A stretch of 64,000 nt of DNA from Candidatus Aegiribacteria sp. MLS_C (GTDB taxonomy: Bacteria; Fermentibacterota; Fermentibacteria; Fermentibacterales; JCC-6), in contig LQBI01000003.1 in NCBI GenBank assembly GCA_002030045.1, positions 34,225 to 98,224 on the forward strand, given 5' to 3'. Within the stretch, counting starts at the first letter, position 1; each line of letters begins with the position of its first letter. Position numbers and translations under genes: made by a program. Of this stretch, positions 17,598-19,279 are shown piece by piece. The notes below the pieces were generated by a model. It made no database searches, was not told the DNA's origin, and saw nothing but the letters and a program-made list of their open reading frames with translations.

Positions 17598-17767
17598 CCC
17601 TGCCGTCCGACGGAATCACCGTATAGACCCCGGAGGGGAGGCGGGAGCGTGAAGGCCGGGCGGCAGTACCCGGTCGGAGCTGAATGCCGGTCGGTAATCA
17701 AAGGAAAAGGGGAGCGGGAGCGGCATGCCACTCCCGCTCCTTATCATCCAGTCAGCGATCCTGCCTT

Positions 17768-18103
17768 TCAGTGGCAGCCGCCGCAGTGGCCGGAATCCAC
17801 CTCCGGCACCTCCTCGTGGTGTCCGCAGCCGCAGTCCTGATGGGAATCCACGCATTCTCCGGAGGCGCAGTCGTCACATTCACCCGCGCAGCCTTCCACT
17901 TCGCCGCCGCAGCAGCAGTCCGTGTCGTGGTCTTCGGCGCAGTCGCACTCTTCGCAGTCCGCGCAGTCCCCGGCGCAGTAATCCTTTTCGCCGCCGCAGC
18001 AGCATTCGGCGCTCTCCGTCGACACCGGGTCCTCCTGTGCGCCGGCGATCATGAAGACACCGGCGACGGCAACTATCATGAAGGGTATCAGCAGTCTTCT
18101 CAT
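17768..18103 (-). CDS. Cysteine-rich secreted protein with an internal duplication
   Basis: 111 residues: a signal peptide (MRRLLIPFMIVAVAGVFMIAGA) and a mature acidic region of about 85 residues with 19 Cys and several His. Two copies of a module are visible: CCCGGEKDYCAGDCADC near residue 34 and CCCGGEVEGCAGECDDC near residue 65. A Cys/His tail follows (CGCGHHEE, HCGGCH). The pattern fits metal chelation or a disulfide-rich envelope protein. It lies downstream of an ArsR-type regulator on the same strand, and its ATG overlaps the stop of the small ORF 18100-18240 (ATGA). Metal storage or sensing is inferred; no known family is recognised. Confidence 0.75.
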   Translation of the reverse strand: MRRLLIPFMIVAVAGVFMIAGAQEDPVSTESAECCCGGEKDYCAGDCADCEECDCAEDHDTDCCCGGEVEGCAGECDDCASGECVDSHQDCGCGHHEEVPEVDSGHCGGCH

Positions 18104-18240
18104 CTGTCCTTCTTCTCCCTGCCGCAGCAGTCGTGGCGACTGTCCTCGCCGTGGCATTCCCTTACCTGTTCCGGCGAACAGTCCTCCGGTCTGCCCTTCA
18201 GCCTGTCAGGCCTTTCGCATCTTCGGCTTCCTCCGCACAT
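18100..18240 (-). CDS. Small cysteine-containing ORF between ArsR and the Cys-rich gene
   Basis: 46 codons beginning inside the 3' end of the ArsR gene and ending in a TGA that overlaps the ATG of the Cys-rich gene. The product would contain six Cys, including a terminal HDCCGREKK. The tight coupling supports a translated ORF. It has no recognised family and no clear ribosome site of its own, so it may be fortuitous. Confidence 0.35.
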   Translation of the reverse strand: MCGGSRRCERPDRLKGRPEDCSPEQVRECHGEDSRHDCCGREKKDR

Positions 18241-18566
18241 GTCCTGCCTCCTTCGGGTCTGCATTCGAACCTGCCTCCAGCCCTCTCCGCGAACAGCCGC
18301 CGAAGAAGGTGGAGCATTCCATCGAGTTTTTCCCTGTCGACGCTGTAGTGGACGAAATAACCTTCCCTCTCGGACCTTACGAGTCCGTTCAGATGGAGCA
18401 GCCGCAGGTGCTGCGATACCGCGCTCTGTGAAATACCCAGATTCCTGGCCAGTCCGTTCACGCATATGGAGTCGTATTCAAGGAGCAGGTCTATCAACCT
18501 GAGCCTGCTCTCGACCCCTATGATGCCCAGGAACTCGGCGAGAAGGGAAAGTTCTGTGTCCTCCAT
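18198..18566 (-). CDS. ArsR/SmtB family transcriptional regulator
   Basis: 122 residues with the winged-helix pattern of ArsR proteins: RLRLIDLLLE, then SICVNGLARNLGISQSAVSQHLRLLHLNGLV, then a wing SEREGYFVHYSV. The metal-site helix has ICVNGL, so only the first Cys of the classical ELCVCDL pair is kept (Cys35). Two more Cys lie in the tail (102 and 110), which could complete a different site. It is preceded by AAGGAAG and by a 12-2-12 palindrome overlapping its promoter, so autorepression is very likely. It probably governs the Cys-rich gene just downstream. Confidence 0.9.
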   Translation of the reverse strand: MEDTELSLLAEFLGIIGVESRLRLIDLLLEYDSICVNGLARNLGISQSAVSQHLRLLHLNGLVRSEREGYFVHYSVDREKLDGMLHLLRRLFAERAGGRFECRPEGGRTCAEEAEDAKGLTG

Positions 18567-18578
18567 CGTCTTCCTTTC

Positions 18579-18604
18579 AGTATATGAGTATCTACTTATA
18601 TACT
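18579..18604. promoter_or_regulatory. 12-2-12 ArsR/SmtB-type operator
   Basis: AGTATATGAGTA, TC, TACTTATATACT: the arms match at 11 of 12 positions. It lies 13-38 bases upstream of the ArsR ATG (18566) and covers the predicted -10 region. Arm length and spacing are those of classical SmtB/ArsR operators. Confidence 0.75.
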
Positions 18605-18617
18605 ATTTCGATGTCAA
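18589..18617 (-). promoter_or_regulatory. Candidate promoter of the arsR gene
   Basis: On the minus strand TTGACA (18617-18612) is followed after 17 bases by TAGATA (18594-18589). The -35 is perfect and the -10 weak; the operator covers the -10 and most of the spacer, so binding would block RNA polymerase. Confidence 0.5.
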
Positions 18618-18678: not shown

Positions 18679-19209
18679 CTACTCCGCCGCCTCCCTGCCC
18701 CTCTGAAGGAGCACCTGCACCACGGACATGGCCGGGTCGTTCACCGTCAGGAAGGTCTGCACCGGTTCTTCCATTCCCGGGAACCAGGCCTCCATGGAGA
18801 CCTCGCCTGTGGCCGGAGTGAAGAAGGGCCGGTAGCAGTGGTTGATGATGTACCAGAGTTCCTCCGGGTATATCATCACGTTGCTCCGCAGGTCACCGCT
18901 GTTGTAGAAGAGGGCGTGCTGGCCGTAGACCAGGTATTCGTCGCCTGCCCTGAGGGTGAAACGGGCGTCTTCGTCGTACATGACGTCCCACATCTCCTCC
19001 ATGGTCATATGCCCGTAGGGGGTCCCGTACTCCCAGTGGTCGGGGCGGCCGTCACCGGTGATCACGATGACGGTTATGTCGCCGTCCTCCCTCTCGTAGT
19101 AGCGGGGGTACTCCATTCCTCCCCAGTAGGGATAGGGTGAATACGGATGGAAGGTCTGTGCGGCAAGGGGCACGGCAAGAGTCAATGACAGGACAAGCAA
19201 TATTCTCAT
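18679..19209 (-). CDS. Secreted protein of unknown function
   Basis: 176 residues from the ATG at 19209, chosen because GGAGGTGA lies five bases upstream and the product then begins with a signal peptide (MRILLVLSLTLAVPLAAQ). The mature part begins FHPYSPYPYWGGMEYPRYYE and continues with DGDITVIVITGDGRPDHWEYG and an acidic helix. It ends QVLLQRGREAAE. I do not recognise a family. The aromatic, Pro-rich N-terminal stretch looks like a surface-exposed linker. Its nearest upstream neighbour on the strand is the HPP membrane protein, 70 bases away, so they may share a transcript. Confidence 0.65.
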   Translation of the reverse strand: MRILLVLSLTLAVPLAAQTFHPYSPYPYWGGMEYPRYYEREDGDITVIVITGDGRPDHWEYGTPYGHMTMEEMWDVMYDEDARFTLRAGDEYLVYGQHALFYNSGDLRSNVMIYPEELWYIINHCYRPFFTPATGEVSMEAWFPGMEEPVQTFLTVNDPAMSVVQVLLQRGREAAE

Positions 19210-19279
19210 TACGTTCACCTCCTGTGTATCTACCCTGAATAACCGCCCTGTGTTCCCGCGGCTCCGGTTCACCGCCCTG

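Follow-up and report, generated by a model that had tools for sequence, protein, structure and literature searches.

A candidate metal-stress operon in Candidatus Fermentibacterota: an ArsR-family repressor with a widespread small partner protein and an exported cysteine-rich protein

A three-gene operon of Candidatus Aegiribacteria sp. MLS_C probably forms a self-contained metal-stress unit, in which an ArsR sensor would act together with a small protein of the ECHG family, as its partner or metal donor, and with an exported metal trap. On sequence evidence, the ECHG protein is the most widespread component of the operon: a conserved ArsR-partner protein or domain that is frequently fused to ArsR. 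It appears to be undescribed. ArsR regulators and cysteine-rich proteins are of known kinds; what appears new is the partner protein, its fusions to ArsR and the proposed exported trap. No description of this system was found in the literature searched, and nothing useful came up there on TsoR, on ArsR proteins carrying this motif or on fused small cysteine-rich proteins, most subscription journals lying outside its scope.

Results

Three overlapping genes on the minus strand

The operon lies in a window of 64,000 nucleotides, the whole stretch of DNA that was analysed (contig LQBI01000003.1, positions 34,225–98,224, assembly GCA_002030045.1). Candidatus Fermentibacterota was sampled here through metagenome-assembled genomes. 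Three overlapping genes are read from the minus strand of the window in the order arsR (18198–18566), P0002 (18100–18240) and P0001 (17768–18103). They encode an ArsR/SmtB-family repressor of 122 aa with orthologues in the genus, an ECHG-family protein of 46 aa and a secreted, acidic, cysteine-rich protein of 111 aa. The 5′ part of P0002 overlaps the 3′ end of arsR by 43 nt, and its stop shares an ATGA overlap with the start of P0001 (18103). An earlier interpretation of the same DNA, made without database searches (the sequence-only reading), had recognized the ATGA coupling; its anatomy needs one correction, in that the small ORF precedes the cysteine-rich gene. An intrinsic terminator with a 13-bp stem and a T-rich tail (17711–17740, minus strand) is found ∼28 nt past the P0001 stop. 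Programmed frameshifting between arsR and P0002 was considered and dropped as unnecessary, because the ER(R/K) codons before P0002 form its Shine–Dalgarno sequence (AAGGAGG). On the same strand, an ORF at 18679–19272 has a possible signal peptide and no match in Pfam or NCBIfam.

The identification of ArsR, already made in the sequence-only reading, was borne out by matches above the curated cut-offs to HTH_5 (PF01022; 44.4 bits against 22, E = 1.5e-11) and to the metalloregulator ArsR/SmtB model NF033788 (73.8 against 55, E = 7.1e-21). The window ArsR scored far below the cut-offs of the equivalog models CmtR, Rv2640c and TsoR.

A single operator with a fixed spacing

The same reading had placed a 12-2-12 operator, with arms matching at 11 of 12 positions, over the arsR promoter, and this held up. 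The inverted repeat AGTATATAAGTA-GA-TACTCATATACT (18604–18579, minus strand) has a spacing of 2 and lies between a −35-like TTGACA element (18612–18617, minus strand) and the arsR start, covering the expected −10 region. When the 142-nt upstream stretch was shuffled at the mononucleotide level, an 11 of 12 match at any spacing from 0 to 4 was reached in one of 2000 shuffles. The promoter is putative: a strict promoter scan called none, and an equally placed TT(G/T)ACA recurs with the same operator layout in relatives.

The repeat contains the motif AGTAT-N8-ATACT. With at most one mismatch, this motif was found upstream of arsR at 11 of 13 Fermentibacterota loci and at 16 of 26 other unfused loci, against a mean of 0.1 in shuffles, a comparison that overstates the significance of the operator since the motif was picked with the sequences in view and the loci share ancestry. 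Outside the Fermentibacterota, no spacing other than 8 stands out for AGTAT/ATACT; inside the phylum spacing 0 stands out too, from an overlapping genus-level palindrome. At loci where ArsR is fused to an ECHG domain, TTAAGT-N8-ACTTAA with up to two mismatches was present in 10 of 16 (null 0.1), in A+T-rich regions where spacings of 4 and 12 also reached 8 of 16. A fixed N8 spacing across phyla would still be hard to obtain otherwise. Judged from these sequences, AGTAT-N8-ATACT is the element kept across phyla, and the 12-2-12 palindrome is a local elaboration.

The 64-kb window contains no second copy of the operator, and the genome as a whole no other close copy; the extra sites matched by a looser pattern were at chance level and fewer than those of a reversed-pattern control. 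Most congeners have an arsR orthologue. Of 19 congeners, 15 have the operator upstream of arsR, with an additional two-mismatch site in one genome; it is absent from the remaining four, and the same four lack both the arsR orthologue and P0001. ArsR apparently governs this operon only, and its output, whatever the signal, would apparently be limited to ArsR itself, P0002 and P0001.

This gene order recurs within the genus and extends to a second genus of its family and to a single genome from a different family of the order. The middle ORF is divergent in some members of the family, yet its place and several of its cysteines are kept. In a homologue search of the kind that the sequence-only reading had proposed as a check, a P0001 profile found relatives in 26 of 290 genomes, all Fermentibacterota and in all 26 beside this arsR, and none in the ∼248 genomes from outside the phylum.

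One conserved cysteine in ArsR

The window ArsR has the cysteines that had been described from its sequence, one in the metal helix α3 (C35) and two in the tail (C102 and C110). Cys35 aligns with the α3 cysteine of SmtB (ELCVGDL), and this first α3 position is a cysteine in all 55 ArsR proteins from ECHG loci. The other cysteines, including those of the tail, vary among family members, and 9 of the 39 unfused ArsRs, that of L047 for example, have none beyond α3.

We compared these proteins with the sensing sites known from the family. The α3N site of SmtB and CadC is incomplete, the second α3 ligand being absent and the N-terminus having no conserved Cys or His. The D.H of the α5 site of SmtB and CzrA is missing from the α5 region in all 55 ArsRs. 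The α2/α5 cysteine pair of BigR and SqrR is not present either, with Asp at the α2 position of the window ArsR in its alignment to HlyU, no conserved cysteine in α5 and a single cysteine in several family members.

A widespread partner protein

P0002 belongs to a family with the motif C..P..LKGKPE.C[ST]PEQI.ECHG…HPC, which is not covered by any Pfam, NCBIfam or PDB entry (PDB by profile search). Profile searching confirmed 202 ECHG loci in GTDB genomes, in Planctomycetota, Desulfobacterota, Chloroflexota, Bacillota, Fermentibacterota and other phyla; the family is uncommon in a broad sample outside the Fermentibacterota (9 of ∼343 genomes). As PEQ[IV]x[EK]CHG was used as the scan pattern, the conservation of those residues is by construction, and the residues that are invariant independently of it are C8, P11, L14, C21 and C38.

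At the 68 ECHG loci outside the Fermentibacterota, ArsR is encoded directly upstream in 26, fused in 16, nearby in 8 and absent in 18, some of these last sitting on short contigs or being cut by contig ends. In the fusions, the ECHG domain is at the C-terminus of ArsR (L050, L065, L066, L071, L073, L075, L076, L078, L081, L091, L095, L098, L112, L117, L119 and L121). An AlphaFold model of a fused protein is confident for the ArsR domain and unreliable for the ECHG domain (pLDDT ∼55). An internal Shine–Dalgarno sequence and ATG are kept just before the ECHG domain in 14 of the 16 fused genes, so that a free ECHG form may also arise.

The permeases near these 68 loci are of ABC-2 type (32), TauE type (4), MOT1 type (5) and a split ArsP-like type (3). 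The ArsP-like halves match the SO_0444-type transporter family weakly, and the SO_0444-type Cu/Zn transporter cluster of Nitratiruptor, whose expression Cd and Cu induce (PMC10092412), is therefore only a distant hint to the identity of the metal. Since hgcAB can have ArsR-like genes nearby (PMC7438021), a connection with mercury methylation was considered, and dropped as the hgcA signature was absent from 80 ECHG loci.

Several other arrangements were seen. ArsR-ECHG, or ECHG alone, stands before a DrrA-like ATPase/ABC-2 permease pair at L047, L066, L071, L081, L108 and other loci, L108 being from the cultivable Natroniella acetigena. The ECHG module occurs in tandem copies within a single reading frame at L051, L071, L075 and L076. 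One Fermentibacterota arsR-ECHG pair (L113) has no downstream cysteine-rich gene. Four ECHG genes from Dehalococcoidia (L070, L080, L089 and L093) have no nearby ArsR, and the genes that come after them belong to one shared cluster; an ArsR-independent role of ECHG is thus possible there.

We infer that ECHG is a partner of ArsR from its invariant Cys and His residues, its adjacency and fusion to the repressor, and the existence of ArsRs without any other cysteine. Given the fusions, and the absence from ArsR of the α5 DxH, of N-terminal ligands and of the α2 cysteine, ECHG would be the natural supplier of further metal ligands. A somewhat unlikely alternative is that ECHG works outside the sensor, as a cytoplasmic metallochaperone or buffer similar to ArsD, CopZ or a small metallothionein, with the tail cysteines of ArsR completing the site and P0001 being an independent trap. 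The window ArsR does have its own C102 and C110, and ECHG is often a free protein near exporters, sometimes in tandem copies; the 18 of 68 loci without a nearby ArsR, some of them cut by contig ends, also fit this alternative. However, fusion to a repressor at 16 loci would be odd for a bulk buffer, an objection weakened by the internal start sites that could release free ECHG from 14 of them, and the 9 of 39 unfused ArsRs with no cysteine beyond α3 have no tail cysteines with which to complete a site.

Non-metal signals can also be sensed by ArsR-family proteins. By sequence, the closest solved relatives of the window ArsR are HlyU proteins, which belong to the BigR/SqrR branch. An ArsR that senses reactive sulfur or redox state, with P0001 as a thiol-rich polysulfide or redox sink, would suit the several ECHG hosts that are sulfate reducers or sediment anaerobes according to their record titles, and the TauE-type permease near four ECHG loci. 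We consider this highly unlikely: the α2 cysteine of HlyU (LCML) is replaced by Asp in the window ArsR (IDLL), the α5 cysteine is unconserved, and an intramolecular cysteine pair is impossible in those unfused ArsRs (9 of 39) that have a single cysteine.

The exported cysteine-rich protein

The sequence-only reading had described P0001 as an exported protein with 19 cysteines and a duplicated module, and our analysis agrees. All 19 cysteines of the 111-aa protein are within the predicted mature part, which is 21% Cys and 30% Asp/Glu. Over 29 positions, the two CCCGG modules share 14 identical residues; among near relatives, the duplication was seen in only one other protein, that of G006. The relatives also have a signal-peptide-like N-terminus. 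Across the family the composition is 15–27% Cys, 23–42% Asp/Glu and 0–4% Lys/Arg, with aromatic residues nearly absent. The mature parts of the relatives contain 9–23 cysteines, odd counts included, with strongly varying spacing; all of them keep a core CxC...C...C..C and a CxxC at the C-terminus. This composition and the CxC, CC and CxxC motifs of P0001 appear compatible with thiolate metal clusters.

P0001 falls into no Pfam or NCBIfam family, and like the ECHG protein it has no match among known metal-binding families; none of 18 relatives matched a metallothionein model, and a PDB search with the cysteine-rich profile gave no match. The AlphaFold model, built on an alignment of 18 rows, had a pLDDT of 48.5 and no confident fold beyond the signal helix. 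One congener has a second short cysteine-rich module (L173; G009 C295:1253–1375) on a contig other than that of its arsR operon.

Exported cysteine-rich proteins are commonly disulfide-bonded, and duplicated modules like that of P0001 are frequent in disulfide domains. Nevertheless, the possibility that P0001 is an ordinary extracytoplasmic protein with structural disulfides only, which the sequence-only reading had itself set against its proposal, is improbable given the variable number and spacing of the cysteines, the lack of a confident fold and the place of the gene in the operon of an ArsR whose regulon has one site. In addition, DsbA, DsbB, VKOR and Thioredoxin_4 had no match in the genome (97.65% complete) and matched in control genomes, another oxidant being possible. 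The variable cysteine count, the acidity, the absence of a predicted fold and the missing Dsb and VKOR genes thus favour metal–thiolate binding over disulfides, and reduced, metal-binding cysteines in P0001 are the favoured reading. The trap suggested earlier, secreted, metallothionein-like and served by a sensor of its own, is kept as the best interpretation. It is strengthened by the conserved operon, by a regulon of one site, by how the cysteine-rich family is composed and varies, and by the lack of recognizable disulfide-forming enzymes; the small ORF, which the sequence-only reading had treated as an accessory detail, takes a central place.

Discussion

We propose the following mechanism for the operon. 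In the absence of a signal, an ArsR dimer would occupy the operator over its own promoter and hold the three genes off, as we infer from what is known of the family. Once in the cytoplasm, a thiophilic metal or metalloid would be bound through the invariant Cys35 of α3, and the remaining ligands may come from the tail cysteines of ArsR, from the ECHG protein as a dedicated partner or metal donor, or from both. Metal-loaded ArsR would then leave the DNA, yielding additional ArsR and ECHG together with exported P0001, an acidic, probably disordered and cysteine-packed protein that may hold metal in thiolate clusters, in the periplasm or beyond it, and thereby lower the influx. The output of the sensor module appears to be an ABC-2 exporter or an ArsP-like permease in other phyla, and an extracytoplasmic trap in the Fermentibacterota.

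More tentatively, these systems may be instances of a general two-part sensor, in which the α3 cysteine of ArsR is combined with Cys/His ligands of a separate or fused ECHG protein. Such a sensor could be present in many anaerobic phyla, with a fixed-spacing operator of the AGTAT or TTAAGT type and interchangeable outputs: an ABC-2 exporter, an ArsP-like permease or, in the Fermentibacterota only, a metallothionein-like trap. We regard this wider scheme as possible, short of an even chance.

In the usual account of metal sensing by ArsR, the ligands are inside the ArsR dimer. If the proposal is correct, a widespread mini-protein that travels with, or fuses to, single-cysteine ArsRs would offer a novel means of building and tuning a sensor, and the ECHG link would give a handle on the cargo of many anaerobic ABC-2 exporters. 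A metallothionein-like protein that is exported, and whose regulator serves one operon only, would likewise be an unusual defence, with metal trapped before entry. The Fermentibacterota are a phylum whose physiology is little known, and both ideas can be tested on small proteins.

SmtA of cyanobacteria is a cytosolic zinc-finger metallothionein under the control of SmtB. The operon resembles SmtB–SmtA in pairing an ArsR/SmtB-family repressor with a small cysteine-rich, probably metal-chelating protein, in having a palindromic operator over the promoter and in the α3 cysteine that aligns with that of the SmtB ELCVGDL motif. Unlike SmtA, which has a zinc-finger fold (PMC7558416), P0001 is exported and acidic and has no relation to the metallothioneins of Pfam. 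The α5 DxH of SmtB is missing from the window ArsR, and SmtB has no ECHG partner. Csp1 is also an exported cysteine-rich protein, for which a role in holding metal extracytoplasmically has been proposed (PMC7558416), as P0001 may do. Csp1, however, carries a Tat signal and folds as a rigid four-helix bundle (PMC7558416), whereas the low-confidence model of P0001 shows no fold past the signal helix; P0001 also has a Sec-like N-terminus and a place in an ArsR operon. BigR and SqrR share the ArsR fold, and HlyU is the closest solved structure by sequence, but the window ArsR has Asp in place of the α2 cysteine and the α5 cysteine is unconserved. CadC, CmtR and the E. coli-type ArsR belong to the same family and, like the window ArsR, have cysteine in the DNA-binding domain, to which the window ArsR adds those of its tail; it differs from them in having one α3 cysteine instead of a CxC pair, in lacking the N-terminal cysteine pair and in its ECHG partner, separate or fused.
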